DNA from: Catellatospora coxensis
GTDB taxonomy: Bacteria; Actinomycetota; Actinomycetes; Mycobacteriales; Micromonosporaceae
Direction of reading: 5' to 3'
Assembly: GCF_016862635.1 (NCBI RefSeq)
Contig: NZ_BONI01000040.1
Span: 1 to 64,000, forward strand
DNA length: 64,000 nt
Shown in pieces: positions 3,899 to 19,533 of the stretch; position 1 is the stretch's first letter, and the number at the start of each line of letters is the position of its first letter. Under the pieces are notes generated by a model, which saw only the letters and a list, made by a program, of their open reading frames with translations, was not told the DNA's origin and searched no databases. Made by a program: the position numbers and the translations under genes.

Positions 3899-5461
3899 TT
3901 ACTGCTCAGCCAGCTCGCCAACTGTCGACTCGTCGACGTCTACCTCACCCAGAGCATCCGCGATGGCGGCGAACTCGTCCAGGGCGGCCTGGAGGTCGTC
4001 GACGATCTCGCGGGCGATCACCGCTGGGGGCAGGAGGCTGTCGCCGTCCTCCAGCGCTGGGTCCTTGAGCCAGGCGATGTCGAGGTCGACCCTGTCACGT
4101 TTGAGTAGCTCGTCGATGGTGAACGCCTTGAACCGCTCGGTCTCAACGCGCTCGCTGTGGGGCTTGCCCGGCTGGTACGCGGCGACGAAGTCGTCGAGGT
4201 GCGCGCGGCGCAGCGGCCGGGTCTTGAGGGTGAAGTGCTCGCCGACGCGGAAGTCGTACACCCACAGTTTCGAGGTCCACGGCTTGCCATCCGTGCGGGG
4301 ATTCTTTTTATCGAAGAACAGCACGTTGGCCTTTACCCCGCCGGCGTAGAAGATCCCGGTCGGCAGCCGCAGCAGCGTGTGGACGTCGAACTCCTTGAGC
4401 AGGCGCCGCCGGATGGCCTCCCCGGCACCGCCATCGGTCAGCACGTTGTCTGGAAGAACCACCGCTGCCCGTCCGTCGATCCTCAGTACGGACATGATGT
4501 GCTGCACGAAGTTGAGCTGCTTGTTGGTAGTGGTCGAGCGGAAGTCGGTGCGGTCGTAGGAGATGTCCTCCTTGTCAAGCCGCCCGTCCGTGCCGTAAAC
4601 GGTGATCGATGACTTCTTGCCAAACGGCGGATTGGCAAGCACCAGGGACACCCGCTCGTCGCCCGCCGGCTGCTTGGCCAGCGCGTCGCGCACGTCGATC
4701 AGCGACGGGCCGTCGCTCGTGCCGACCCCGTGCAGGATCATGTTCATCGCGGCCAGGCGGGCGGTGCCCGGAACCAGCTCAACCCCGCGGATCGCGCCGC
4801 TGGACAGGCGGTCCTGCTGCGCCTTGGTCATGCGGCCGCGATACTCATGCGCGATGTGCGCGTGCGCGGCGATCAGGAAACCGCCAGTGCCGCATGCCGG
4901 GTCCAGGATCGTGTCATCTGGCGTGGGTTGGGTGACCGCGACCATCGCGTCGATCAGCGCGCGCGGAGTAAAGTACTGGCCAGCGCCGGTCTTGATGTCC
5001 TCCGCGCCCTTGGCGAGCAGGCCTTCGTACGCGTCGCCCTTAATGTCGACTCCGGCGGCGGCCCATTCCTGCCTGCCGATCAGATCGACAGCGAGCTTCT
5101 GCAGCTTCGCCGGATCGGTGATCTTGTTCTGTGCCTTGGCAAAGATCGTGCCGAGGTTGGTGCGCGGATGCTTCGCCAGCTCGATGAGGACATGCCGGTA
5201 GTGCCGCTCCAGCTCGTCGCCCTTCTTCGCGACCAGCGACGCCCAGTCCAGGTTCTCGGGAACGACCCGCTTGGGGCGATCGCTCAGGTCGCTTTGGTAC
5301 TGCTCGTCGGCGATCTTCAGGAAGAGCAAGTAGGAGAGCTGCTCCACGTAATCGATCGTCGACAGGCCATCGTCGCGCAGCACCGTGCAGTAGTTCCACA
5401 GCTTCGTGACAAGGGAGTTTGTCTCAGCCTGAGCGGAGGCGGTGGTCGTCTCGATGGTCAC
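3899..5461 (-). CDS. hsdM: Type I restriction-modification methyltransferase subunit HsdM
   Basis: A 520-aa N6-adenine methyltransferase subunit of a type I R-M complex; with HsdS it methylates the recognition site, and with HsdR it forms the restriction complex. An N-terminal helical HsdM domain covers about residues 15-145. The catalytic domain follows, with the GQYFTPR signature (161-167), SAM-binding motif DPACGTGGF (187-195) and catalytic NPPF (277-280). Length and motif order are normal for an active enzyme. The start is GTG, overlapping the hsdS stop by 4 nt. It is the last gene of the operon. The gene order R-S-M differs from the common R-M-S. Confidence 0.95.
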   Translation of the reverse strand: MTIETTTASAQAETNSLVTKLWNYCTVLRDDGLSTIDYVEQLSYLLFLKIADEQYQSDLSDRPKRVVPENLDWASLVAKKGDELERHYRHVLIELAKHPRTNLGTIFAKAQNKITDPAKLQKLAVDLIGRQEWAAAGVDIKGDAYEGLLAKGAEDIKTGAGQYFTPRALIDAMVAVTQPTPDDTILDPACGTGGFLIAAHAHIAHEYRGRMTKAQQDRLSSGAIRGVELVPGTARLAAMNMILHGVGTSDGPSLIDVRDALAKQPAGDERVSLVLANPPFGKKSSITVYGTDGRLDKEDISYDRTDFRSTTTNKQLNFVQHIMSVLRIDGRAAVVLPDNVLTDGGAGEAIRRRLLKEFDVHTLLRLPTGIFYAGGVKANVLFFDKKNPRTDGKPWTSKLWVYDFRVGEHFTLKTRPLRRAHLDDFVAAYQPGKPHSERVETERFKAFTIDELLKRDRVDLDIAWLKDPALEDGDSLLPPAVIAREIVDDLQAALDEFAAIADALGEVDVDESTVGELAEQ

Positions 5462-6861
5462 AGTGGGAGCTCTTCCTGAATACCGGCGGATACCTGCCTG
5501 GTCTGCCTTGGTGGTGTAGTAGATGTCGTGGCGGAGGTCCTGCGAGGCCGGGTTGCCTTCGGGCGGCTCATCCGTTCAGTCTCAAGGCGCTTGAGCAGTA
5601 TCGAGGCAGGTTCATCCGACGGGTCCTGCGGGAGGACCTTGCCAGCGAGAGTCTTGGCGAGAAGGGCTCGACGCAAGTGCTGTGACCTGCGTGTAGCCCT
5701 CCGTGTGGCGGCTGCCAAACGGTTAGCGGCGGCGAAATGCTCCGACGCGATCTTGACAATTTCAGCCTGCACGTCGAGTGGCGGCACTGGGATGTCAAGC
5801 AACTCAAGGATGCGCTGATTTACCTTATAGATTCCCGCAGTCGTGCGTGCCTTGGATTCGATTTGTTCCCGAACAGTCGGGGAATCCCATACGAACGCGA
5901 GGTACTCAGGATTAATCGCGCGCGAATCTGGGCGTACGCGAATCATGGTGTCCGGGAACGCGACCGGATCTGGATCATCGACCACAAGTGCACCTCGCGC
6001 CACGAGGCGGAGCGAGCCGTTGCCTCGGCTTACCATGAAATCGCCCCGGTTGATTAGGAAAGGCCTTGCATCTTCTTCATGCCACGCGCCGCCCTTCCGT
6101 GCTGTAAGGTCTAGAACCCGATCCCTGATCGCCGTTAGTCGCAGTACGGGAAATCCTTCATCATCGGTCGGCACCGAGCGACCGTTGACGAGCGGTGAGG
6201 CAAGAAGTTCGTGGAGCTTACGGGTCGATGAGAGCCACGGTTCAAGAAGCTTACGTCGTCGTGCATTGTCGTAGGACAACATCCACTTTCGGGCGGAGTT
6301 GACATAGGCGTCGGCTGCCATGAGCCGTGATAGCTGGCCGTCAAGAGCCTCGACGATGCGGCGCTGTTCAGCGAGAGGTGCGAGGAGGATTTCGATGCTT
6401 GCCAATGCGTCTTGTGAAATGTTGCGCATTGAATCCTGGGCACCGGTCGCCTTCGCTGAGATCTGCGCTCGGACCCACGGAGACGAGAGCATGTAGACGA
6501 GCCAACGACGGTCTATCTCCGAGCATGGGATCAAACGGAGACTCTTATCTGAGAGCAGTAAACGTGGGCGACATTGCCCGACTAGGACAGGTGCGCCGAC
6601 GTAAGCCTCCGTGTTGGCTCGGCTTACCAGGACATCGCCGGGCCGAATTTCGTATCGCGGATCTGGTTGACGGTGCGCAGGAACGGCCTTGTTTTCTTGT
6701 TCGTCGAATTCTCCCCAAGTCATGGCGCTGACCTTGATGATTCCCCACTCGTCCGCTTCTGCGCGTCGCGGCTCGCAGGTGTAGGACTTTCCGGCTTCAA
6801 TTCCGAGGAGAAGGTCACCGAGTCGGATACGTATCCACCCGTCCGGGAGTTCCACGCTCAA
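5458..6861 (-). CDS. hsdS: Type I R-M specificity subunit HsdS
   Basis: A 467-aa DNA-specificity subunit with two target-recognition domains, about residues 1-150 and 215-360. Each is followed by a conserved helix: LAPLAEQRRIVEALD near 160-175, and PPLDVQAEIVKIASEHF near 350-370. The two domains would read the halves of a bipartite site. The C-terminal tail from about 405 is basic and low-complexity. The start is taken as TTG at 6861, giving a TTGA overlap with the hsdR stop; a GTG two codons later is the alternative. Base composition is visibly less GC-rich than the neighbours, especially around 5740-6350, as expected for a horizontally shuffled subunit. Confidence 0.93.
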   Translation of the reverse strand: MSVELPDGWIRIRLGDLLLGIEAGKSYTCEPRRAEADEWGIIKVSAMTWGEFDEQENKAVPAHRQPDPRYEIRPGDVLVSRANTEAYVGAPVLVGQCRPRLLLSDKSLRLIPCSEIDRRWLVYMLSSPWVRAQISAKATGAQDSMRNISQDALASIEILLAPLAEQRRIVEALDGQLSRLMAADAYVNSARKWMLSYDNARRRKLLEPWLSSTRKLHELLASPLVNGRSVPTDDEGFPVLRLTAIRDRVLDLTARKGGAWHEEDARPFLINRGDFMVSRGNGSLRLVARGALVVDDPDPVAFPDTMIRVRPDSRAINPEYLAFVWDSPTVREQIESKARTTAGIYKVNQRILELLDIPVPPLDVQAEIVKIASEHFAAANRLAAATRRATRRSQHLRRALLAKTLAGKVLPQDPSDEPASILLKRLETERMSRPKATRPRRTSATTSTTPPRQTRQVSAGIQEELPL

Positions 6862-9800
6862 GCTAGTTCTCTATCCATCTCGGCGATCAAGGCGCGAGCG
6901 CGGTCCCGGCCGAAGCACCTGACTAGGCCAGCTTGGCCGCCGCGCTCGGTGAAGGGTACGCCACGGACGTCTTCGACTGAGATCCCCACACCGATGGCGA
7001 CCGTGTCGCGGATCTGCTCCAGCCACCACACCTGGTCGGCCGTGAACTCGGCCCCCGCCTGCCTCTGGCGGAGCAACCAGCCCGCAAAGCGTTCCTCGAC
7101 TGCGCTGCGATAGGGCTTGAGCTCGATGTCCAGACCGAGCTCGTAGCGGATCAGGCTGACCAGGTCGGGCAGCTGTGCGTTTCCCCTGGGTGATGCGACT
7201 GACTTGCCGAGGGTCTCGTACGCGTCCCACAGGATGTCCGGGGTCCATGCATGCGGTGGTCTGCGGATGCGTGCGGCTATCTCGGTGAGCTTGTCGAGCG
7301 CGTCGCGCCCGCCGCCGCGAGCGGCGGTCAGGACTTGGATCGCGGTGATCTCGTCGCGGTGCTCGGTCAGGTAGGCGCGCCAGGAATGTACCGTCGAGGC
7401 GGCGCGCTCTTCCCTGGGCACCTCTACGAGGCTGATGACCTCGTCCTTGCTGGTCTCGTCGTAGGTGATGTCGTGGTCGCGGCGGATCTCGAGGATGCGG
7501 GCGCGCAGCGGCGGGTTGCCGGTCAGTGGGGCGATCGCGTCCTCGACGAGCTTGCGGGCGGCGGCTGGCCCGCCCTTCGCGTCGGCCTGTTCCTGCCGGT
7601 CGGGGTCGATCGCAGCGACGATGCCGCGGGCGATCTCGGCGATGGTCACGCCGTTGCCGACGGTGGCCAGCTCCTGTCGTTCGGCTGGGCTGATCTGGTG
7701 GTTGAGGCGGGCGAGTCGGCCAGCGAGCGCGGCGGCCTCGGTTTCGTTGATTGCTTTGGTCGCGCATTTCTGGAGCAGCTTTTCGAGGCTGATCTGCTTC
7801 TCGCTGGCGGCCGTCAGGGGTTTGGCGTCGACCAGCGGGGAGTCGGTGACCCCGACCGCGTCCAGCAGGATGAAGCGGTCCTTGGCGATCCCGGCGCCTG
7901 CTCCGGGGGTGACCTCGCGCAGCTCGTCGGGGTCGAGGGTGCGGGCGCCGCGGCCCTTCATCTGCTCGAAGAGCACCGCGCTGCGCACGGCCCGCAGGAA
8001 GATCACGCACTCCAGGGCACGCACATCGGTCCCGGTCGCGATCATGTCTACCGTCACCGCGATACGAAGCGCGGCGTCGTGACGCAGGTCGTTGATGAGC
8101 GTGTCCGGGTTCTTGCCAGCAGCACGGACCTTGTAGGTGATCTTCGTGGCGAAGTCGTCACCTTCCCCGAAGACCAGCTTGGCGTGGCGAAGCACGTCCT
8201 CGGCATGGTTGTCGTCCGCCGCGAAGATGAGCGTCTTGGGCAGCACCTTCCGATCGGGGAACCAGCGCCGCCAGTTGTCCCGGTAGGTCGTGAGCACGGT
8301 GCGGATGTGATCCTCGGCGATGACCGAGCGCCCGAGCTGCCGGTTGGTGTAGACGAAGTCCTCGTCAAGCTGCTCCAGACGCTGGGCACGGGTCTTGCGG
8401 TTACGGACCTTGACCGTGGTGCCCTCGTCGATCAGCGAACCCTGCGACCCGATCTTGGTCGACAGGCGCACCACGTCGAAGTCGACGTTCACGCCATCGG
8501 CGACCGCCATCTCGTAGGTGTACTCGGAGACCAGGTTCTGATGGAAGAACCCGAGGGTCTGCTTCGTCGGGGTCGCCGTAAGGCCGACGATGTAGGCGTC
8601 GAAGTAGTCCAGCACGCCTCGCCACAGCCCGTAGATCGAGCGATGGCACTCGTCCACGATGATCATGTCAAAGGACTCGGGTGGCACCCGCGGGTTGTAC
8701 TCGACCGAAACCGGCGCGTCGTTCTCGTAGTCCAGGCCGTCGGCGGTCGTGTCCTCGGCGTCGTCGGCCGCGTCGTCGTTGACCACGGCCTCCCCGCGCA
8801 GCAGCCCGTACATCTTCTGGATCGTGCAGATCAGCACGCTGGAGGACTCCTGGACCTGGTCGCCGGCCAGGCGCTCCACGTTGTAGAGCTCGCTGAACTT
8901 GCGCCCGTCGTCGGGGGTGACGTAGTTGCGGAACTCGCCGAGCGCTTGGCGGCCCAGGTTGTTGCGGTCGACCAGGAACAGCACCCGCTTGGCCTTGCCG
9001 TGCTTGAGCAGGCGGTACGTCTCGGTGACCGCGGTGAACGTCTTGCCCGCACCGGTCGCCATCTGGATCAGGCCGCGAGGCAGGTCATTGGCGAGGGACG
9101 CTTCCAGCCCGGTGATCGCATCGATCTGCGCCTGGCGCAGCCCGCTGGTCTCCAGCGTGGGCATCGACTTCAGCCGCGCCCGATAGGTAGGTGCGTCCGG
9201 TTCCTCGTCAGCCTGGCGCATCCATCCGGCGACCGTCTCCGGGCGGTGGAAGGAGAACACCTCACGGGTGCGGGCAGACGGATCCAGACGGTTGAGGAAT
9301 ACGGTCTCCGTCCCGGTGGTCGCGTACCGGAATGCGAAGGGCTCCGACTTTCGCCACACCGCGAACGAATGCTCCTTCAGGACACCTCCGGCATAGCGGG
9401 CGTTCTGCTTCTGCGCCGCGGTGAGCGTCTCGCCTTCCCGCTTGGCCTCGATGACCCCGACGATCTTGCCGCCGACGTAGAGCACGTAGTCGGCCGGGCC
9501 TGAGGCCAGCCGGAACTCGCGGACCGCTACTCCGCGCCCGGCCATGGGGTTGAGTTCGCCCATGTCCTGGACCAGCCAGCCGGCCTGGGCGAGCATTCTG
9601 TCGATCACCCGGCGCGCCTGGACCTCGTTGAGCGGCGCGGGCCGCAGCGCCCGCTCGACGATCGTCTCCCGGTCCTTCGAGCTGACCTTGTTCGGCTGGT
9701 CCTTGAGCACGTTGAAGGACATCTGCTGCGCTGCTTGCAGCGCCGCCAGCTCGGCCAGCAGCGCCGCATTCTGCGCGCGCAGCTCCTCATGCCGTGAGCG

Positions 9801-10397
9801 GGACACCGCCACCAGTGACTCAGCCTCGACCCGCGCGCGCTCGTGCGCCTGGGCCAGATCCGCAACCTCGGTGAGCCTCAGTTTCGACTCGGCCAGCGCC
9901 TCTCGGTCACGCTGAAGTGCGATGCGCAGCTCCGCGAGCTCGGCCGGGTCGGCGATTACCGGCTCGGCGGGCGGCACGAAGCCCTCAACGGTGCGGTCCC
10001 CGGACAGCGCCCGGTGCAGCCACACCCCCAGCTCCCAGGCCACCCGGATCGAGCCCAGCGCACGGGCCGTGTCGAACATGTGCCGGTGTGTCGCCTGGTT
10101 CCCAACGGTGCGTAGCGTGTCGAAGGCCGAGCGCACACCGGGCGTCAGCATTCCGGCGCTCGCCAGCGCGGCCACACGATGCACCTGAAGGTCGCCGGAC
10201 ACACGCAGGCCGGCGCGAGTGATCAACTCCTCGGCCAGGACCTCGCCGAACTGGCGGGTGTGCACCAAGGCAGCGTTCGAGTCGGTGAACACGACCGCCT
10301 CAGCCTGCGCGCCATAGAGCGCCAGCAGCGGGTTGTAGTGGAAGAGCCTGCCGAAGTTGGCCGAAGCCCGAGCCAGATCAGCCAGCCGCTTATCCAC
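6858..10397 (-). CDS. hsdR: Type I restriction endonuclease subunit HsdR
   Basis: An 1179-aa motor and nuclease subunit that translocates DNA with ATP and cuts it at a distance. A DUF4145-like N-terminus (about 1-135) is followed by a coiled coil (about 150-230). The nuclease core has D303 and E317-A-K319 of the PD-(D/E)xK motif. The SF2 helicase follows, with Walker A ATGAGKT (447-453), the DECH box, and LTATPT. The C-terminus matches the HsdR/EcoEI-type domain. It starts with GTG and is the first gene of hsdR-hsdS-hsdM. The long N-terminal extension is a known variant of the family. All catalytic motifs are intact, so the system should be active. Confidence 0.95.
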   Translation of the reverse strand: MDKRLADLARASANFGRLFHYNPLLALYGAQAEAVVFTDSNAALVHTRQFGEVLAEELITRAGLRVSGDLQVHRVAALASAGMLTPGVRSAFDTLRTVGNQATHRHMFDTARALGSIRVAWELGVWLHRALSGDRTVEGFVPPAEPVIADPAELAELRIALQRDREALAESKLRLTEVADLAQAHERARVEAESLVAVSRSRHEELRAQNAALLAELAALQAAQQMSFNVLKDQPNKVSSKDRETIVERALRPAPLNEVQARRVIDRMLAQAGWLVQDMGELNPMAGRGVAVREFRLASGPADYVLYVGGKIVGVIEAKREGETLTAAQKQNARYAGGVLKEHSFAVWRKSEPFAFRYATTGTETVFLNRLDPSARTREVFSFHRPETVAGWMRQADEEPDAPTYRARLKSMPTLETSGLRQAQIDAITGLEASLANDLPRGLIQMATGAGKTFTAVTETYRLLKHGKAKRVLFLVDRNNLGRQALGEFRNYVTPDDGRKFSELYNVERLAGDQVQESSSVLICTIQKMYGLLRGEAVVNDDAADDAEDTTADGLDYENDAPVSVEYNPRVPPESFDMIIVDECHRSIYGLWRGVLDYFDAYIVGLTATPTKQTLGFFHQNLVSEYTYEMAVADGVNVDFDVVRLSTKIGSQGSLIDEGTTVKVRNRKTRAQRLEQLDEDFVYTNRQLGRSVIAEDHIRTVLTTYRDNWRRWFPDRKVLPKTLIFAADDNHAEDVLRHAKLVFGEGDDFATKITYKVRAAGKNPDTLINDLRHDAALRIAVTVDMIATGTDVRALECVIFLRAVRSAVLFEQMKGRGARTLDPDELREVTPGAGAGIAKDRFILLDAVGVTDSPLVDAKPLTAASEKQISLEKLLQKCATKAINETEAAALAGRLARLNHQISPAERQELATVGNGVTIAEIARGIVAAIDPDRQEQADAKGGPAAARKLVEDAIAPLTGNPPLRARILEIRRDHDITYDETSKDEVISLVEVPREERAASTVHSWRAYLTEHRDEITAIQVLTAARGGGRDALDKLTEIAARIRRPPHAWTPDILWDAYETLGKSVASPRGNAQLPDLVSLIRYELGLDIELKPYRSAVEERFAGWLLRQRQAGAEFTADQVWWLEQIRDTVAIGVGISVEDVRGVPFTERGGQAGLVRCFGRDRARALIAEMDRELA

Positions 10398-10575
10398 GTC
10401 GCCCCGCCCACCGCTCGATGAGAAAGCTTCCCGCGCTGCATCATAAGCAACGCTGGTCCTCTACGCCGATCTCGTTACAACGGCCCGGACACCATCAGTC
10501 GCCTTCGCGACACAAGGCCGTCCGACTTGTCGCACGCTGAGAAAATCGCGTCTTCGCACGACGATTGGGGACGCG
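10398..10575. promoter_or_regulatory. Divergent promoter region between hsdR and the DUF262-ATL gene
   Basis: A 178-bp gap separating two outward-facing defence genes, so both promoters must lie here. It contains an imperfect dyad, GCGACACAAG (10507-10516) against CTTGTCGC (10526-10533), that could be an operator. I cannot assign -35 or -10 boxes with confidence. The shared region would allow coordinated control of the two systems. Confidence 0.4.
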
Positions 10576-12651
10576 GTGAAGGCTGGCGAGACGACGCTGA
10601 AAGGTCTGCTCCAGGGCGAGCGGCAGTATCTCGTTCCCCTCTATCAACGCCGCTACAGCTGGAAGCGCAGGCACCTGGAGCAGCTGTGGAACGACCTTCT
10701 CAGCCTGGTGGACGCCGACCTGCCCGTGACGCACTTTCTCGGCTCGGTCGTGCTCGCCCCCAACCCCGCCAACACGCCTGCTGGCGTGCAGAGCTGGCTG
10801 GTGGTGGACGGCCAGCAGCGACTGACGTCGCTGAGCATCCTGCTGTGCGCGATCCGGGACCACGTTCGGGACACCGATCCTGAGGCGGCCACCCGGATCG
10901 ACGACCTGTACCTGCTCAACAAGTGGGCGAAGGGACTGTCGAAGTACACGCTGCTCCCGACGCAGGCAGACCGTGAAGCGTGGATCTCGCTGGTGGAGCG
11001 CAAGGCGGATGCCGGAGGAGATGACGCCATCGGCGTCGCCTACCGCTACTTCCTCGGCGCGCTCGCCGCCGGCGACGACGGCCAGCCCTTCGACCTGGAG
11101 CGGCTGGAGCAGGCCATCGTGGCACGCCTGAGCATCGTGGAGATCGCGGCGCACGCCGACGACAACGTGTACCGGATCTTCGAGTCGCTCAACCACACCG
11201 GTCGGCGGCTCACGCAGGCAGATCTGCTGCGCAACTACCTGTTCATGCGGCTGCCCACCCGTGATGAGCACGTCTACCAGCACCAGTGGGTCCCGCTGCA
11301 GGAGCTGCTCAACGACGATGAACTGACCCAGCTGGTGTGGCTGGACCTGGTGCTGCGTGGCGACGACCGGGCCACGCAGGAGTCGACCTACCAGGCGCAG
11401 CAGCAGCGACTGATGAACGTCGCCGACGAGGCCGGCATCGAGGCATGGGTGGAGGAGCTGCACCGCCGAGCACGGCTGTACGCGCGCATCCTGCGGCCGG
11501 AACTCGAGAAGGATCTGGTGCTTCGTCACGCCCTGGACCGGCTCAAACGCTGGGGCGCCGCTGTCGTCGAGCCGATCGCGCTGCTCGTCATGCTGGCACA
11601 CGAACACGGCCGGTTGACTGTCGCGGAGGCAGCCGCATCGTTGCGGGTCGTGGAGAGCTACCTGGTTCGACGCATGATCGCCGGTATTCCGACTAACAAC
11701 ACGAACCGGTTGCTGATGTCCATCGTCAAGGAACTCGGCGACACGGCACCCACCGCAGCGGAGATCACTCGGCTGCTGTCGGGACCGCGGCGGCGCTTTC
11801 CCGCCGACCAGCTCATCCGGGAGGCGGTCCTGGCCAACCCGTTCTACTGGAACGGCCGCGGCCCGCAGCGGACATACGTCCTGCGGTGTATCGAGGAGGC
11901 GTACGAGCATGACGAGCCGCTCGATTTCGCCAAGTCGAAGCTGACCATCGAGCATGTGCTGCCGCAGTCCGCCACGCCCGAGTGGCTGGAGATGCTCGCG
12001 GCGGACGCGCCGGGTGAGTCACCCGAGGAGTTGCACGGCTCGCTGGTTCACACCCTGGGGAACCTGAGCCTGACCGCGTACAACGGCAAGCTCGCGAACG
12101 ATTCGTTCGGGGTGAAGAAGAAGATCCTCGCCGATAGCGGGCTGGCGATGAACCGGGCGATCGCAGACGCGGACCAGTGGGCCCGTACGGAGATCCACCA
12201 GCGGGGCCGCGAGATGGCGGACAAGATCGTTCAGATCTGGCCCGGTCCTGATCACAGTGCCGTAGCCGAGCAGGTCAAGCCCCAATGGGCTCTGATGACG
12301 AGCGTCCTGGCCTCCATCCCGGCGGGGCGCTGGACGAGCTACAGCGACGTGGCTGCGGTGATCGGCTCGCACCAGGTCCCCGTTGGCACGCGCCTGGCGA
12401 CAGTAGCGGTGCCCAACGCCCACCGGGTGCTGAAACTTAACGGTGCTGTCTCAGCCGAGTTCCGCTGGCCGGACCCGCAACGGACAGACGACCCAAGAGC
12501 AGTGCTCGAATCAGAGGGCGTGGTCTTCGACGCACAGGGCCGGGCAGCGAAGACCCAACGAATGACCGCAGCCGACCTCGCCAAGGCGATCGGCATCGGG
12601 CTCGACAATGATAACGACAGCGATGCTGATCCCTCCGACAACACGGAGTGA
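10576..12651 (+). CDS. GmrSD-like DUF262/DUF1524 protein fused to an alkyltransferase-like DNA-binding domain
   Basis: A 691-aa three-part protein, probably a modification- or damage-sensing restriction factor. The DUF262 (GmrS-like, ParB-fold NTPase) domain shows PLYQRRYSW (21-29) and the DGQQR motif (78-82). A helical middle leads to a DUF1524 (GmrD-like His-Me nuclease) domain with I-E-H-V-L-P-Q (458-464) and H-T-L-G-N-L-S-L (492-499). From about 571 the tail has the fold signature of the MGMT/ATL DNA-binding domain (IPAGRWTSYSDVA, GTRLA, NAHRV). The PCHRV acceptor site is NAHRV (614-618): Ala replaces Cys, so it can bind but not repair alkylated bases. The start is GTG. It lies divergent to hsdR. 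The family assignment is strong; the target is inferred. Confidence 0.88.
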   Translation: MKAGETTLKGLLQGERQYLVPLYQRRYSWKRRHLEQLWNDLLSLVDADLPVTHFLGSVVLAPNPANTPAGVQSWLVVDGQQRLTSLSILLCAIRDHVRDTDPEAATRIDDLYLLNKWAKGLSKYTLLPTQADREAWISLVERKADAGGDDAIGVAYRYFLGALAAGDDGQPFDLERLEQAIVARLSIVEIAAHADDNVYRIFESLNHTGRRLTQADLLRNYLFMRLPTRDEHVYQHQWVPLQELLNDDELTQLVWLDLVLRGDDRATQESTYQAQQQRLMNVADEAGIEAWVEELHRRARLYARILRPELEKDLVLRHALDRLKRWGAAVVEPIALLVMLAHEHGRLTVAEAAASLRVVESYLVRRMIAGIPTNNTNRLLMSIVKELGDTAPTAAEITRLLSGPRRRFPADQLIREAVLANPFYWNGRGPQRTYVLRCIEEAYEHDEPLDFAKSKLTIEHVLPQSATPEWLEMLAADAPGESPEELHGSLVHTLGNLSLTAYNGKLANDSFGVKKKILADSGLAMNRAIADADQWARTEIHQRGREMADKIVQIWPGPDHSAVAEQVKPQWALMTSVLASIPAGRWTSYSDVAAVIGSHQVPVGTRLATVAVPNAHRVLKLNGAVSAEFRWPDPQRTDDPRAVLESEGVVFDAQGRAAKTQRMTAADLAKAIGIGLDNDNDSDADPSDNTE

Positions 12652-12773
12652 TCAGGACGCGGAGTCGCGGAAGGCTCGGGCCAACAGCTCGTTGGTTCGA
12701 GCCGGTCGATCTGGCAAGGCGTCGAGCCGCGTCGGGTGGCGTGCTCGAATCTACGACCCGGGCGCTGATCTCC

Positions 12774-12785
12774 TATGCTGACCGC
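12774..12785 (+). promoter_or_regulatory. Candidate leaderless promoter -10 box
   Basis: TATGCT at 12774-12779 ends 6 bases before the GTG at 12786, the spacing expected of a leaderless actinobacterial transcript. No Shine-Dalgarno sequence precedes that GTG. No clear -35 is visible. Confidence 0.4.
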
Positions 12786-13355
12786 GTGGATGATGTAGCG
12801 GTCTCGTTGGCGGACGCTGGGCACGGCCGCGAGTTGATCGATCCGATCTGCGAGGTGTACGACGAGGTCTTCTCCGCGCCGCCGTTCTTCTGGCGTGATG
12901 ACGAGTCCCAGCTCCACCGGGAGCGGTTGGCGAGCCTGCTTGACGACCCGACGTTCGGCCTCGCCACCGCGACGGTAGCTGGCGAACTGGTCGGCTTCGC
13001 GTACGGTTTCACGGTTCCCGCGGATACGCAACGGTGGCAGCGGCTGAAAGCGGAGGTCGATCCCGAGACCTCACGGGAGTGGCTGGGGCGCACCTTCCTT
13101 CTGTTCGACTACGCGGTGCGGGCACCGTTGCGCGGTCGGGGCATCGGCAAGGCATTGCATGATCTTCTGCTGTCGAGTCGGTCCGAGGAGCGTGCGACGC
13201 TGACGGTCCAACCGACTGCCGTAGACACTAAGCGGATCTATGAGCGGTGGGGTTGGCGGATGGTCGGCCAGGTGGAGGGCGGCCCGACCGCCGCCGCACC
13301 GCTCTTCGACTGCTACCTACGCGATGGCCTGGCGGACCTGCGGAGAGCCGGTTAG
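12786..13355 (+). CDS. GNAT-family N-acetyltransferase
   Basis: A 189-aa GNAT protein. A central strand (ATVAGELVGFAYGFTV) precedes the core FLLFDYAVRAPLRGRGIGKALHD region, where R-G-R-G-I-G-K-A is the acetyl-CoA pyrophosphate loop. The tail has T-K-R-I-Y-E-R-W-G-W, typical of the last helix and strand. The GTG at 12786 is chosen because the GNAT fold starts soon after and a -10 box sits at leaderless distance; a longer in-frame reading from 12648 has no similarity. Its stop overlaps the stop of the convergent XRE/TPR gene by three bases. The substrate is unknown. Confidence 0.8.
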   Translation: MDDVAVSLADAGHGRELIDPICEVYDEVFSAPPFFWRDDESQLHRERLASLLDDPTFGLATATVAGELVGFAYGFTVPADTQRWQRLKAEVDPETSREWLGRTFLLFDYAVRAPLRGRGIGKALHDLLLSSRSEERATLTVQPTAVDTKRIYERWGWRMVGQVEGGPTAAAPLFDCYLRDGLADLRRAG

Positions 13356-14926
13356 CTCGCCAGCCCGTACGTGATCATCTGCTCGGATACGTCGCGCACC
13401 TCGGGGATGTGCGGCCACTTTGCCAGCTCCTTGGTGCCACGTCGCAGGCGATCGATCAAGCGGGCTGATCGGTTGTGGCCTGCGAGCCGTACGGCGACTC
13501 CGATGGCCTGTGCTGCTTGCGCGATGTCCGGCTTGGCCGCCCGCATGCGGCATACCCCGAGCCGCAGCGAGGTGAGTGCGAGGTTGCGTACGAATGCCGG
13601 ATCGATGTTCTCCAGGGCTTGTTCGGCGACTGCCGCTCCCCGTTCAGGCTGGCCGAGGTAGAGGTAGCAGGTGCTCTCGGTGCTGGCGAGCTGGCCGGCG
13701 TTGTAGAAGTACACCAGCCCTGTAGGGCTGCCCGCGGAGCTGGTGACGAGTGCTCGGGCGGAGTTGACGGAGCTGAGCGCTGCGGTGTGCTGGTTGTCCA
13801 TGGCGTAGGCGCGGGCGGCGACGTCGAAGGCGTATGCCTTGAGGTGGTCGTCGTCGGTGCGCATCGCCCATCCGCCGGCGGCGAGCGCGTGATCGATGCC
13901 GGTTCGCGGTTGGCCTCGCCAGGTCGCCAGGTGGCTCATGTTGCACAGCACCAGCGCCCCGAGTTCGGTGTTGTGCGCCTCGTGTGCGGCCGTGCGAGCC
14001 TGCTCGAAGTACGTATTCGCGGCCTCGTAGTCGTTGAGGTCGAAGCAGAGCCAGCCCGCGAAGCGCAGAAGGTTTGCGTAAAGCGACAACAGCCGGTCAC
14101 GGGCGGCACCGCGTGCGGCGGGCAGGAGGCTTCGCACCAGGTTGCGCTGCGCGAGCGTGGTCTCCATCGCCGCTGTCGGACCGAGGGCGTCGTCTTGGCG
14201 CATGCAACGCCAGAGGACGGCCTCAATGTGGTCGATGGTCTGGGAATCGACTCGGGACGGCGACGCGAACGCCGCGATGGTCCTTTCTCGTTCGTCAAGG
14301 TCCAGCCCGGCGAGAACCGGGGCTGCGGCGGCGGCAGCGGCGGCGAAGCTGAGCCACTGGAGGATGTCGCGACGTTGCATTCGTTGTGCCCACTCGATGA
14401 GTTCGTGTACGAGCCGCTGGTAGTCGGCCTCGTTGGCGACCAGGTGAGAGCCAGACGACGTGATGAAAGCGTCCACCCGGCCGACGATGTCGGGGGGCTG
14501 GACACGCAGGGAGCGCTCGGCGACGGTGACCGCCGCGCCGACCGGTTCGCTGCCGGCCTGGCTCGCCGCGTCGTCGGCCGTGAAGTCGTCGCCGTCAAGC
14601 AGGTCGGCGGCACTGCACTGGTAGATCCGGGCCAGCCGGTTGAGGTCCTCGATCGACGGTGGTCGGCCGCTGGCCGAGGGCCATGCCTCCCAGTAGGAGA
14701 CCTGCTTGTGGGTCAGGGGCCGGTCCGATGGCCACAGCATGTTCCACTGCTCGGCGACTTGCTGCTGCGTCATGCCAACAGCGTTGCGGAACGCCACGCG
14801 CGAGTTGACGTTGAAGCGTGTGCGCACGACGGCGGCGACTCGGGCAACCGACGTTCCCCGCTCGGTCAGCTCGGCGCGTAGCGCCGCCAACTCCGCCCGC
14901 CGACTGCGGTAAGCCGCCTTTGGCAT
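13352..14926 (-). CDS. XRE-family HTH regulator with TPR-like C-terminal domain
   Basis: A 524-aa regulator of a type abundant in actinomycetes. After a basic helical N-terminus, an XRE-like HTH lies at about residues 45-105 (GMTQQQVAEQWNML, then SIEDLNRLARIYQCSAADLL). A linker leads to an all-helical TPR-like region (about 200-510), rich in repeats such as YEAANTYFEQARTAAHE. Such proteins sense a ligand or peptide through the TPR part. The ATG at 14926 has AAGGAG upstream. It is divergent from the radical SAM operon, and a perfect dyad sits between them at 15016-15035, so local control of that operon is likely but unproven. Confidence 0.85.
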   Translation of the reverse strand: MPKAAYRSRRAELAALRAELTERGTSVARVAAVVRTRFNVNSRVAFRNAVGMTQQQVAEQWNMLWPSDRPLTHKQVSYWEAWPSASGRPPSIEDLNRLARIYQCSAADLLDGDDFTADDAASQAGSEPVGAAVTVAERSLRVQPPDIVGRVDAFITSSGSHLVANEADYQRLVHELIEWAQRMQRRDILQWLSFAAAAAAAAPVLAGLDLDERERTIAAFASPSRVDSQTIDHIEAVLWRCMRQDDALGPTAAMETTLAQRNLVRSLLPAARGAARDRLLSLYANLLRFAGWLCFDLNDYEAANTYFEQARTAAHEAHNTELGALVLCNMSHLATWRGQPRTGIDHALAAGGWAMRTDDDHLKAYAFDVAARAYAMDNQHTAALSSVNSARALVTSSAGSPTGLVYFYNAGQLASTESTCYLYLGQPERGAAVAEQALENIDPAFVRNLALTSLRLGVCRMRAAKPDIAQAAQAIGVAVRLAGHNRSARLIDRLRRGTKELAKWPHIPEVRDVSEQMITYGLAS

Positions 14927-15015
14927 GGCCGCTCCTTGCCCCCATCCGCCGAATGTGGACCGTGCGCATCGATCGTAGGTGGCCAGAAACAAGATCCGCA
15001 TCCGTCGGCACCGAT

Positions 15016-15035
15016 ATTCCACGCGGGCGTGGAAT
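15016..15035. promoter_or_regulatory. Perfect 20-bp dyad in the divergent intergenic region
   Basis: ATTCCACGC (15016-15024), GG, GCGTGGAAT (15027-15035): nine-base perfect arms separated by two bases. It lies 90 bp upstream of the XRE/TPR start and 159 bp upstream of the first operon gene. A compact dyad in this position is a natural operator for the HTH regulator. The remainder of 14927-15193 shows nothing else I can name. Confidence 0.55.
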
Positions 15036-15193
15036 TCCCGCCGCAAGTTCTGCGTGACCGTGGTGTCACCAGGCGTGATGGCCGAGAACGATCGTTGCAG
15101 GGCATCGATGGATGGCCAATCGCCGCCCCGGCCGGGCGTGACACCGACTCCGCCCGGCCGGGTGCACGGCCTGACGCAGCGAGAGGGGAATCG

Positions 15194-15427
15194 ATGCATG
15201 AGCACGCGCCGACAGCGCCGGAGCCTGTCGACGCCAGGCTCGTGGCCGCCAGGCAGGTCGCCCGGGTGCACTGCCCGATCGCCTGGCCGCAGGGCGACCG
15301 CTGCCTCAACTGCCACCAACCCTTTCCCTGCTCTGCCTACGGATGGGCGTTCGACGTGCTCGCCGACGCGGGCTGGAGCGCCGAGCAGATCAAAGCCCTG
15401 GATGTGAGGACGGGTCCATGGTCATGA
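15194..15427 (+). CDS. Small cysteine-containing protein, first gene of the radical SAM operon
   Basis: A 77-aa protein of unknown function. GAGAGGGGA precedes the ATG. The middle carries C-P-I-A-W-P followed by C-L-N-C-H-Q-P-F-P-C, four closely spaced cysteines and a histidine that could bind zinc. A similar short Cys cluster recurs in the products at 15418 and 15917 (CAGCLEFTC and CLACRELEPC), so three of the four small proteins share a C-x2-C-x4/5-C pattern. It overlaps the next gene by 10 nt. It may be a regulatory partner of the divergent XRE/TPR protein. Confidence 0.65.
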   Translation: MHEHAPTAPEPVDARLVAARQVARVHCPIAWPQGDRCLNCHQPFPCSAYGWAFDVLADAGWSAEQIKALDVRTGPWS

Positions 15428-16192: not shown

Positions 16193-16293
16193 ACTCCATG
16201 TTTCCCACCCATCTGGCCGCAGGCCGATACGCCCGCCGCCGGGCGCACAGCCCACGACACGTACGCAACGACCGGCCGAGGAGACAGCCGTGA
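16189..16293 (+). CDS. Possible 34-aa peptide coupled to the radical SAM gene
   Basis: ATG at 16189 overlaps the previous stop as ATGA, and TGA at 16291-16293 overlaps the radical SAM GTG as GTGA, so a 34-codon frame fits exactly between two genes. The product is basic, rich in Arg, His and Pro, and has no Cys. The position just before a radical SAM gene is where a precursor peptide would sit. Against it, third codon positions are only about three-quarters G/C, it uses rare CGA, AGG and AGA codons, and its end also serves as the ribosome-binding site of the next gene. It may only be a coupling ORF. Confidence 0.35.
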   Translation: MNSMFPTHLAAGRYARRRAHSPRHVRNDRPRRQP

Positions 16294-17129
16294 CGCTTGA
16301 ACTGCCCAGGTACGTCGAGGTAGAGACCAGCCGTCGCTGCAACCGCACCTGCTCCTGGTGCCCCAACGGCGAGCACGACGCCCGCAAGGTGCAGCAGCTG
16401 ATGGACTGGGACCTGTTCACCCGGATCATCGAACAGCTCGCCGAGCATGACTACGGCGGCTACCTCGCGTTTCACAACTACAACGAGCCGCTGCTGTCAC
16501 CACGCATCATCCGCGAGATCGAGCACGTGCGGGCCGTCCTGCCGCGCGCCCGCCCGGCCATCTACACCAACGGCGACGTTCTTGACGCGGCGCTGTTCAC
16601 CAGGCTGCTCGACGCCGGTGTCGCCTACCTGCGTGTCACCCGCTACCCCCGACGCGCCGACATCCAGCCCACCTTCGCCGGAATCAAGGCGTACCTGCGG
16701 CGCAAGGGGCTGGCCGACCTCGTCTCCTGGTCCTTCGAGCCGATCCGCCAAGGCATCGCCGCCCGCTGGACCTGCGAGAACGTCACGGTCGAGGTCATCG
16801 GCCCGAAGATCCTCGACACGTACAACAACCGAGGCGGCTCGATCAAGCTCCTTCCGCTGCTGGTCAAACAACGATCCGAACCGTGCCTGATGACCGCCAC
16901 CTCCGCCGTCATCGACTACGCCGGCCGCATGAAGATGTGCTGCTGCGTCTACCCGGAGACCGACGACCACGAGCAGTACATCGTGGGCGACCTGTCCACC
17001 GAGACCTTCGCCGAGCTGTGGGCCGGTCCACAGATGAAGGCATGGCGCGACTCCCACGCCCGCGCCGACTGGTCCCTGTCACCCGCGTGCACCTCGTGCG
17101 CCCAGCCACTCCCGGAGACCCGGCGATGA
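16290..17129 (+). CDS. Radical SAM protein with SPASM-like C-terminal cysteines
   Basis: A 279-aa radical SAM enzyme. C17-x3-C21-x2-C24 (CNRTCSWC) binds the SAM-cleaving 4Fe-4S cluster. FHNYNEPLL and TNGD match the GGE-region and later core strands of the partial TIM barrel. The C-terminal region adds further cysteines (EPC, MCCC, and CTSC near the end), the pattern of a SPASM or twitch auxiliary cluster. The start is GTG with GAGGAG before it. The gene overlaps its neighbours on both sides by 4 nt. Linkage to a GHMP kinase and a phosphohexomutase suggests a sugar or sugar-like substrate; a peptide substrate is the alternative. The reaction is unknown. Confidence 0.85.
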   Translation: MTLELPRYVEVETSRRCNRTCSWCPNGEHDARKVQQLMDWDLFTRIIEQLAEHDYGGYLAFHNYNEPLLSPRIIREIEHVRAVLPRARPAIYTNGDVLDAALFTRLLDAGVAYLRVTRYPRRADIQPTFAGIKAYLRRKGLADLVSWSFEPIRQGIAARWTCENVTVEVIGPKILDTYNNRGGSIKLLPLLVKQRSEPCLMTATSAVIDYAGRMKMCCCVYPETDDHEQYIVGDLSTETFAELWAGPQMKAWRDSHARADWSLSPACTSCAQPLPETRR

Positions 17130-18163
17130 ACCCGAAAACCCTTCCCCACAGCGTGGCCGCATCCGCCCCGGCACGCATCTGCCTCGCCGGAGAGAGCCTC
17201 GACTGGATGATCGACGGCCCTTCCGTGGTCGCCGCCGTTCCGCTGCGCACGACCGTGCGCATCACCCGAGGTGTCGGAGACACGGTGCACCTGCAAGCAG
17301 CCGAACCGATCAACGCCACCCGCCACACCACGGTCAAGGATCTCGGCCGCTACCGAGGCGACCCTATGGACCTGCTGCAGGCCACCGCCTACGTCCTCGC
17401 CGAGACCTGCGCGGGAGTGCTGCCCGGCAGCCAGATCAGCTCGATCACCCGCGTTCCGGTCGGCGCAGGCGTGTCCAGCAGTGCCGCCGTCTCGGTCGCC
17501 GCGAGCGCGGCCCTGCTGCTCGCCGGGCAGAACAGCATCCCAGCACCCCGCACCGTCGCCACCGCCGCCCACGCCGCCGAGGCGATGCAACTGCACTCCG
17601 GGGCCGGATGGATGGACTTCCTCGCTTGCGCCTACGGCGGCGTCAACCACCTCACGGGCGGCACCCCGGCCATGATCCGGCCGCTGCGGGAGGAGATCGG
17701 ATGCCCGATCATCCTCATCGACACCCTCGACCGCCGCGCCACCGCCCGCACGCTGGTCGGCAAACACGAGCGCTTCTACACCGGCGACGCCGACCTTCGC
17801 CACTATGCCGTCGTCGCCCCACGCATCGTCACCGACCTGGCCGAACTGCTCGCCATGCCGGACGCCGACTACCCGGCCATCGGAGAGCTGCTGCAAGAAG
17901 CCCAAACCCTGCTACGCGAACGCGTGCGCTGCTCCACACCGATCATCGACGAGTGCGTAACGCGAGCTGTGAAGGCAGGCGCGTACGGGGCAAAGATCAC
18001 CGGCTCGGGCCACGGCGGCTGCCTGTTCGCACTCGCCCCGGTAGAGATGGTTCCTGCCGTTCGTGCCGCGCTGTCCGATCTGCCCGTGCGTGTCATGCTG
18101 TTCACGACCGGGGAGCCCCATGGCGTCGTCATCCTGCCAGACCAGAGCGAGGAGCCCGTATGA
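17126..18163 (+). CDS. GHMP-family sugar kinase
   Basis: A 345-aa ATP-dependent small-molecule kinase of the galactokinase/homoserine/mevalonate superfamily. Motif 1 is the APARICLAGESLDW strand (about 15-28). Motif 2, the phosphate loop, is P-V-G-A-G-V-S-S-S-A-A-V (about 111-122). Motif 3 is G-S-G-H-G-G-C near the C-terminus. Motif 1 reads GESLDW where galactokinase has GEHTDY, so it is not ordinary GalK; the HddA/Fkp-type sugar-1-kinases are closer in style. ATGA overlaps link it to the radical SAM gene and the mutase. A kinase paired with a hexomutase implies conversion of a sugar phosphate, probably on the way to an activated sugar. Confidence 0.85.
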   Translation: MNPKTLPHSVAASAPARICLAGESLDWMIDGPSVVAAVPLRTTVRITRGVGDTVHLQAAEPINATRHTTVKDLGRYRGDPMDLLQATAYVLAETCAGVLPGSQISSITRVPVGAGVSSSAAVSVAASAALLLAGQNSIPAPRTVATAAHAAEAMQLHSGAGWMDFLACAYGGVNHLTGGTPAMIRPLREEIGCPIILIDTLDRRATARTLVGKHERFYTGDADLRHYAVVAPRIVTDLAELLAMPDADYPAIGELLQEAQTLLRERVRCSTPIIDECVTRAVKAGAYGAKITGSGHGGCLFALAPVEMVPAVRAALSDLPVRVMLFTTGEPHGVVILPDQSEEPV

Positions 18164-19533
18164 CCGACCTAGCCAAGCTGATCAAAGCCTATGACGTGCG
18201 CGGCGTCGTCCCCGACGAGTTCAACGAGGACCTGGCCCGCCAGATCGGCGCAGCGTTCGCCCGGCTCGTCGACGCCGAAGCTGTGATCGTGGTCCGGGAC
18301 ATGCGCCCCTCATCGGTGCCGCTGTCGCAGGCGTTCGCCGAAGGCGTCACCTCGCAGGGCCTGAACGTCATCGACGCCGGACTCGGCTCGACCGACCTGC
18401 TGTACTTTGCTGCCGGGCACCTCAACCTGCCCGGCGCGGTCTTCACCGCCAGCCACAACCCCGCCCAGTACAACGGCATCAAGATGTGCCTCGCCGGTGC
18501 CGCCCCGGTCGGACAGGACACCGGCCTCGGCGACATCCGCCGCATGCTCGAAGAAGGCATCCCCGCCGGCCCCGTGCACCGCGGCTCGGTCACCCACCGG
18601 GACCTTCTCGCCGAGTACGCCGCCTACCTGCGCTCCCTGGTCGACCTGACAGCGATCCGCCCGCTCAAGGTCGTCGCCGACGCGGGCAATGGCATGGGCG
18701 GGCATATGGTCCCTGCCGTGCTCGGCGATGCCATCATGCCCGCGCTGCCGCTGTCGATCGTGCCGCTGTACTTCGAGCTGGACGGCACGTTCCCCAACCA
18801 TGAGGCGAACCCACTCGAACCGGCCAACCTGGTGGACCTGCAGAAGGCCGTCGTCCAGCACGGCGCGGACATCGGCCTGGCCTTCGACGGTGACGCCGAC
18901 CGCTGCTTCGTCATCGACCAGAACGGCGACCCCGTGCCGCCCTCGGCGATCGTCGCACTCATCGCCACCCGCGAACTTGCCAAGGCGCCCGGCGGGGCCG
19001 TCGTCTACAACGTGATCACCTCCAAGGCGGTGCCGGAGATCGTTGCCGAACACGGCGGAACCGCTGTGCGGGAACGGGTCGGGCACTCGTTCATGAAGGC
19101 GACCATGGCCCGCCACGATGCGATCTTCGGCGGCGAGCACTCCGGGCACTACTACTTCCGCGACTTCTGGCGCGCCGACACCGGCATGCTCGCCGCCATG
19201 CACGTCCTGGCTGCGCTCGGAGGGCAGGACCGGCCGCTGTCGGAGCTGACCGGCGACTACACGCGCTACCACGCCTCTGGCGAGATCAACAGCGAGGTCG
19301 CGGACGTAGCCGCCACCCTCGACGCTGTGACAGCCCACTTCGCCGGCAAGGGCAAGACCGCCGACCGGATCGACGGAGTCACCGTCGAACTGCCGAGCGG
19401 TTGGTTCAACCTGCGACCGTCGAACACCGAACCCGTACTGCGCCTCAACGTCGAAGCGGCCACCACAGGCGAGATGATCCGCATTCGGGACGAGGTTCTG
19501 TCCCTCGTTCGTGGCACGTCCTCACCCGCTTGA
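18160..19533 (+). CDS. Phosphomannomutase/phosphoglucomutase family protein
   Basis: A 457-aa alpha-D-phosphohexomutase that moves phosphate between C6 and C1 of a hexose. All four family loops are present: the phosphoserine loop TASHNP (active Ser), the metal-binding D-G-D-A-D-R, the sugar-specificity loop G-E-H-S-G-H, and the phosphate-binding S-N-T-E-P-V-L-R. GEHSG is typical of enzymes that accept both gluco- and manno- sugars. Length is normal. The start overlaps the GHMP kinase stop by 4 nt, and it closes the operon. No nucleotidyltransferase or glycosyltransferase follows, so the pathway must borrow one from elsewhere or end at the sugar phosphate. Confidence 0.92.
   Translation: MTDLAKLIKAYDVRGVVPDEFNEDLARQIGAAFARLVDAEAVIVVRDMRPSSVPLSQAFAEGVTSQGLNVIDAGLGSTDLLYFAAGHLNLPGAVFTASHNPAQYNGIKMCLAGAAPVGQDTGLGDIRRMLEEGIPAGPVHRGSVTHRDLLAEYAAYLRSLVDLTAIRPLKVVADAGNGMGGHMVPAVLGDAIMPALPLSIVPLYFELDGTFPNHEANPLEPANLVDLQKAVVQHGADIGLAFDGDADRCFVIDQNGDPVPPSAIVALIATRELAKAPGGAVVYNVITSKAVPEIVAEHGGTAVRERVGHSFMKATMARHDAIFGGEHSGHYYFRDFWRADTGMLAAMHVLAALGGQDRPLSELTGDYTRYHASGEINSEVADVAATLDAVTAHFAGKGKTADRIDGVTVELPSGWFNLRPSNTEPVLRLNVEAATTGEMIRIRDEVLSLVRGTSSPA

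Follow-up and report, generated by a model that had tools for sequence, protein, structure and literature searches.

A GmrSD-type protein of Catellatospora coxensis with a cysteine-less ATL-derived domain, a candidate modified-base reader with relatives on other defence-type effectors

GmrSD proteins fused to the alkyltransferase-related domain PF01035 are already in print: Machnicka et al. 2015 (PMC4619093) reported several such homologues, mainly from Streptomyces. As far as the accessible part of that paper goes, they combine DUF262, DUF1524 and DNA_binding_1, as does the protein described here, and the added domain is described as DNA-binding and as coming from cysteine-dependent repair proteins; the same part makes no mention of cysteine loss, arginine-finger loss or other effector scaffolds. 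No account of a cysteine-less module or its other scaffolds was found in the literature searched, which excluded most subscription papers and bioRxiv preprints. New here is the wider pattern of related modules on PDC-S11, McrB-like and Mrr_N/HEPN-type proteins. A Ferroplasma AGT-EndoV fusion likewise joins an alkyltransferase-fold domain to a nuclease; in the available portion of PMC10779285 it is reported to repair O6-alkylguanine, and its nuclease family differs from GmrSD.

Alkyltransferase-like proteins (ATLs), such as S. pombe Atl1, the Vibrio protein 2kif and E. coli ATL, share with the domain studied here the fold, the absence of the cysteine, the lack of an N-terminal AGT domain and the base-flipping tyrosine. 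However, where ATLs have PWHRV, domains of the type found here mostly have NAHRV, their arginine finger is mostly replaced by Val or Gln, and they possess an invariant Phe and Trp loop (68 aligned rows) and are fused to defence-type effectors. On the nuclease side, DndI, SspE and BrxU are GmrSD-fold restriction factors and the best structural matches of our full-length model; we know of no ATL domain in any of them. The DndI and SspE systems are described, in the portion of the source available, as sensing phosphorothioate. McrBC type IV restriction is a further point of comparison, since some relatives of the module are located on McrB-like proteins, N-terminal to the AAA domain and in one case with McrC adjoining, although the protein under study is a GmrSD and the McrB-linked copies are divergent.

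The window, that is, the whole 64,000-nucleotide stretch analysed from the 9.35 Mb genome of C. coxensis, contains a gene at 10576..12651 (+) that begins with GTG, ends with a stop codon at 12649-12651 and encodes a fusion protein of 691 aa, here called GmrSD-ATL. A DUF262/GmrSD_N (GmrS) domain with YQR and DGQQR motifs occupies residues 8-223 (10597..11244, +; Pfam E=6.4e-34), and a DUF1524/GmrSD_C (GmrD, HNH-type) domain residues 409-549 (11800..12222, +; Pfam E=2.2e-24). PF03235 and PF07510 occur on a single polypeptide and their motifs (DGQQR at 78-82, IEHVLPQ at 458-464) are conserved, which identifies the protein as a GmrSD, as the initial annotation had proposed from the same motifs. 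In a 57-row alignment the YQR and DGQQR residues of GmrSD_N are invariant, and so are E459, H460, N496, N508 and K514 of GmrSD_C. The fusion matches the PADLOC models Orf5, HEC-06 and mREase_IV. Its full-length AlphaFold2 model (pLDDT 87, pTM 0.74) has as best PDB matches DndI (1.1e-14), SspE (1.1e-10) and BrxU (2.6e-5), followed by ATL/AGT structures, of which the best has E=0.04. The host genome encodes a further DUF262 (GmrSD_N) protein at another locus (L002, also L060; G000:C2:199509-200141, -).

The C-terminal part contains the ATL-derived domain, with an aligned span of residues 563-668 (12262..12579, +) and NAHRV at 614-618. PF01035, the DNA-binding domain of O6-methylguanine transferases, matched residues 576-649 with E=7.4e-6 and 26.2 bits (curated cut-off 27), and in a whole-genome search the protein scored 30.6 bits, above that cut-off. 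A profile of 26 relatives compared with solved structures gave S. pombe Atl1 (1.6e-8), the Vibrio ATL (8.2e-8) and Ada (5.1e-5), the last ranking below both ATLs, alongside other AGTs. The AlphaFold2 model of the C-terminus alone (pLDDT 85) retains two HTH helices, and its PDB ranks 1 to 40 are all ATL/AGT-family proteins or engineered forms; 2kif came first and was the sole match at E<=0.001 (E=2e-4, TM 0.52/0.67), followed at rank 2 by Atl1 (3gva, E=4.7e-3). Profile and model thus agree on a C-terminal AGT fold without an N-terminal AGT domain, as in ATLs, and NAHRV instead of the PCHRV acceptor cysteine sets the domain apart from AGT/Ogt. The structural comparison with Atl1 and Ada therefore bore out the earlier assignment of an MGMT/ATL domain with NAHRV in place of PCHRV, and the open reading frame is an intact GmrSD protein with an MGMT/ATL-fold C-terminus that lacks the acceptor cysteine.

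A search of genome contigs confirmed 286 relatives. The best 80, ranked by similarity to the window's domain, were kept, a selection that under-represents scaffolds remote from GmrSD; the record titles of all 80 name an actinobacterium. The 68-row alignment comprises the window's domain and 67 of these loci, the other 13 being truncated or near copies, and overlaps an earlier 27-row set. Alignment A1 omits L032 as broken, L055 as a fragment and L060 as the host genome's second DUF262 locus; A2 omits L035 as a near copy, A4 nine of 65 computed references as near copies and A5 13 of 80 rows as truncated or near copies.

The acceptor position is occupied by Ala in 63 of the 68 aligned domains, by Pro in three and by Gly in two, and Cys was found in none of them, nor in any of the 27 rows of the earlier, partly overlapping set. 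Absence of the cysteine is an ATL trait, and so is the base-flipping tyrosine (Tyr25 of Atl1), which corresponds to Tyr589 and is kept in 68/68. Also invariant in all 68 rows are Trp586, Thr587, Ala593, Gly604, Arg617, Val618, Gly623, Phe629, Trp631, Leu644, Glu647, Gly648 and Ala657. Two other ATL features are missing. According to the available part of PMC10779285, most ATLs have Trp in place of Cys, and Arg39 of Atl1 serves as the arginine finger. The Trp is present in 0/68 rows, and the site of the finger, position 601, is Val in 50, Gln in 10 and Arg in two (its correspondence to Arg39 is taken from the 26-relative profile alignment, which has a 2-residue gap nearby), so the canonical arginine finger is lost. 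Since the tyrosine is kept and the finger is not, the domain is better called ATL-derived than a standard ATL, and it is uncertain whether it would flip bases as ATLs do. The survey of the acceptor site upheld one half of the Ala/Trp expectation, with Ala prevailing and Trp never seen, and the missing finger together with the absent Trp leaves the suggestion that the domain recognises O6-alkylguanine in particular unsupported. Position 606 of the recognition helix mostly carries a basic residue (Arg 39, His 22, Lys 1), and as a guess this residue might replace the lost finger. The acceptor-motif His is not fixed: 57 rows have His, nine Trp and two Tyr.

In 15 of 15 close pairs, which were chosen by the analyst and some of which share rows, dN/dS of the ATL segment was 0-0.40, and that of the GmrSD core 0.05-0.30. 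Because residues are conserved and dN/dS is near that of the GmrSD part, the ATL-derived domain is, judging from sequence comparison, maintained under purifying selection; a vestigial or random C-terminus was rejected on the dN/dS values.

A maintained domain could still do no more than tether the nuclease, as a non-specific dsDNA-binding winged helix that reads no base. The lost arginine finger and the variable acceptor-motif His would suit such a tether, as would the two HTH helices kept in the model, but the invariance of Tyr589, Arg617, Val618, Phe629 and Trp631 argues against it. The McrB-like proteins described below bear on the tether both ways: the aromatic loop is not kept in their copies, and the module is placed N-terminal to the AAA domain, which speaks against mere tethering. 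We regard the tether as unlikely, and we favour as the probable reading a modification-dependent restriction enzyme of GmrSD type on one chain, its MGMT/ATL-fold domain serving as a non-catalytic reader.

Both GmrSD domains were detected in 19 of 27 proteins scanned. Among the best 80 of the 286 loci, the GmrSD N-half lies in frame in 69, the C-half alone in four and neither in seven; of the 69, 55 have a further C-terminal tail and 14 end like the window protein. Most GmrSD relatives carry such a tail, of ~170 aa, and Pfam returned nothing convincing for the five tails examined. Other architectures include DUF4268 (L039), an ADP-ribosylglycohydrolase match (L033, 32 residues at its C-terminus) and GmrSD-RAMA-ATL (L049, L051 and L056). 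L153 and L169 match the PADLOC model PDC-S11 (4.5e-49 and 3e-49), which is PD-(D/E)XK-like, and show a D...ExK motif visible by eye together with a weak NucS_C match; weak NucS_C matches also occur in L168, L044, L053 and L054, all of them below the curated cut-off.

The module is also related to a region of four McrB-like proteins. At L057:6280-9638 (-) the order is Mrr_N, ATL region and AAA_5, with McrC directly downstream (PF10117, 7.5e-50), making the locus a McrBC pair. The L057 domain was found with the window's domain in the class genomes at E=1.8e-11, and scores 50 bits against a profile that excludes it. L204, L207 and L208 score 47, 38 and 30 bits against the module profile in a region N-terminal to the AAA domain; AAA_5 is present in all three, and Mrr_N is over the cut-off in L204 and L207 and below it in L057 (26.1 of 29.5). 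PF01035 itself detects L204 weakly (19 bits) and does not detect L057, L207 or L208. In a by-eye alignment the acceptor position of the four copies is Ala, His, His and Trp, with no Cys, and the Phe-x-Trp loop is altered in L057 and missing in L204, L207 and L208, so by sequence these copies are divergent.

A HEPN-type architecture was found in L165:9623-11563, with the order Mrr_N, ATL and HEPN and an RxxxxxH-type motif; both flanking matches are below cut-off (Mrr_N 20.0 bits; HEPN 28.2 bits against 28.4 for the segment). L042:7472-9448 resembles L165, with weak Pfam matches for its parts (HEPN E=0.08). L193:802-2664 has flanking parts like those of L165, after which they are named since Pfam finds nothing in L193 at E<=0.01, and lacks the ATL module. 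L165 and L042 against L193 thus form a natural presence/absence pair for an ATL cassette on Mrr_N-HEPN-type proteins.

In a tree of the domain, judged by the starred branches, the PD-(D/E)XK label must have changed at least twice, and the two HEPN-type rows fall among GmrSD rows. The tree has few columns, leaves 32 of 65 inner branches open and was rooted by the analyst on nine free or short copies, the branch from these to the rest having support 0. Among its labels, L064 and L066 were called GmrSD-RAMA without a domain scan, and L043 and L047 were called PD-(D/E)XK by likeness only, as Pfam gives PF01035 alone.

That related modules also occur on proteins of the PDC-S11, McrB-like and HEPN types strengthens the role predicted from sequence in the initial annotation, that of a DNA-recognition module. 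On the favoured reading the module has moved between effectors, and the sensor is the part that is transferred. In E. coli McrB, the reader of modified bases lies N-terminal to the GTPase. The McrBC case is the strongest hint of a reader because the module is placed in just this position relative to the McrB GTPase, even if in a divergent copy. A wider proposal is that a dead AGT/ATL-derived domain, its Cys mostly changed to Ala and with a new aromatic loop on most scaffolds, forms an undescribed, transferable class of modified-base readers. Such readers would direct four or more kinds of effector, namely GmrSD, McrBC, PD-(D/E)XK nuclease and HEPN ribonuclease, to a base that is modified, perhaps hypermodified, in actinobacterial phage DNA, and not to alkylation damage. 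We hold this proposal tentatively, at somewhat less than even confidence, which is reduced slightly by the divergence of the McrB-linked copies and by Pfam detecting, weakly, a single one of the four.

For the window fusion we infer base flipping, licensing, cutting and an anti-phage role as follows. The HTH of the ATL-derived domain would dock in the minor groove, and the conserved Tyr589 would help to turn out the modified base. A pocket with Ala615 in place of the cysteine, beside the loop with Phe629 and Trp631, would hold this base without chemistry; Ala instead of Cys or Trp could leave room for a larger group, on which the two invariant loop aromatics, Phe and Trp, could stack. The base in the pocket would license NTP use by the DUF262 domain, and the HNH domain would then cut the invading DNA. 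Which modifications a modification-dependent restriction system detects is set by readers such as SRA or EVE domains. To these, a repair fold that had lost its chemistry and spread from effector to effector would add a further class; it would also tie DNA repair to immunity and would hint at an unrecognised base modification in actinomycete phages. The phage records gave no homologue and no hint of a ligand, and nor did the viral contigs, where one peptide pattern was searched.

The distribution of the domain is patchy. At E<=1e-8 it is present in 28 of the 394 class genomes, and at E<=1e-5 in two of 11 of the genus, the window's genome being included in both counts, and the other copy in the genus has an in-frame stop. 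One relative was found among 72,556 plasmid records, lying less than 8 kb from a type I-E cas gene and from an integrase gene. This distribution counts in favour of the restriction-enzyme reading. It also bears on the possibility that the fusion is an alkylation-damage enzyme, which would find O6-alkylguanine in the cell's own DNA and nick beside it for repair, like the Ferroplasma AGT-EndoV fusion, or kill damaged cells. ATL structures are the nearest matches of the domain, and AGT-EndoV and ATL-EndoV fusions have been reported (PMC10779285, in the part available), both of which agree with a damage enzyme. Against it stand the patchy spread, the lost arginine finger, the related modules on McrB-like, PDC-S11 and HEPN-type proteins, and the host's four further genes scoring above the PF01035 cut-off, two with PCHRV and one with PWHRV. 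A damage enzyme is in our opinion improbable, and O6-alkylguanine repair as the main role was rejected on the spread and the other scaffolds.

Type I restriction-modification genes are indeed located beside the fusion, as first annotated: hsdR (6858..10397, -), hsdS (5458..6861, -) and hsdM (3899..5461, -) are divergent from gmrSD-ATL, with 178 bases between the starts. This arrangement could suggest that the fusion and hsdRSM are one functional unit in which, for example, the reader checks DNA handled by the type I system. However, among the best 80 of the 286 loci, some of which are cut by contig ends, HsdM-like proteins were found in eight, HsdS in four and HsdR in one; looser single-linkage clustering gives HsdM-like frames within 6 kb in 12/80. 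HsdM at E<=1e-50 is present in the window's genome alone among 11 of the genus, and DNA similarity between the window and the locus of Catellatospora methionotrophica (L102) covers the gmrSD-ATL gene alone (10566-12606). Linkage of the fusion with type I genes is therefore rare and not conserved; hsdR lies outside the conserved unit and the hsd operon is regarded as a local neighbour. A functional unit with hsdRSM, highly improbable on these counts, was rejected, and the combined defence island suggested in the initial annotation is not supported.

Downstream, the open frame of a GNAT acetyltransferase (12648..13355, +) overlaps the stop of gmrSD-ATL by 4 bases. It was rejected as an operon partner, the 80 loci yielding a single weak match, on the opposite strand and 0.86 kb off. 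Adjoining the island is an NsdA-family TPR-like regulatory protein (13355-15319, -; NCBIfam NF053720), with a relative in one other of the 11 genus genomes (36% identical). Further along are a radical SAM/SPASM protein of 279 aa (16290-17129, +), for which no NCBIfam subfamily was over its cut-off, and a phosphomannomutase-like protein (17608-19533, +) with an N-terminal extension of ~180 residues in its open frame and a second copy elsewhere in the host genome (G000:C7, 66% identical).

In a Micromonospora/Streptomyces subset of the loci, a UvrD/GajB-like helicase is located downstream of gmrSD-ATL. The frame at L107:5302-7575 is UvrD/Rep-like, with GajB as its best PADLOC match. In L107, L105, L119, L128 and L130, and likewise in L133, L142, L146 and L166, the helicase frame shares the strand of gmrSD-ATL and either starts immediately past the end of that gene or overlaps it. 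In five Streptomyces-type loci (L147, L150, L151, L162 and L164) the helicase is on the opposite strand, 70-120 bases downstream.
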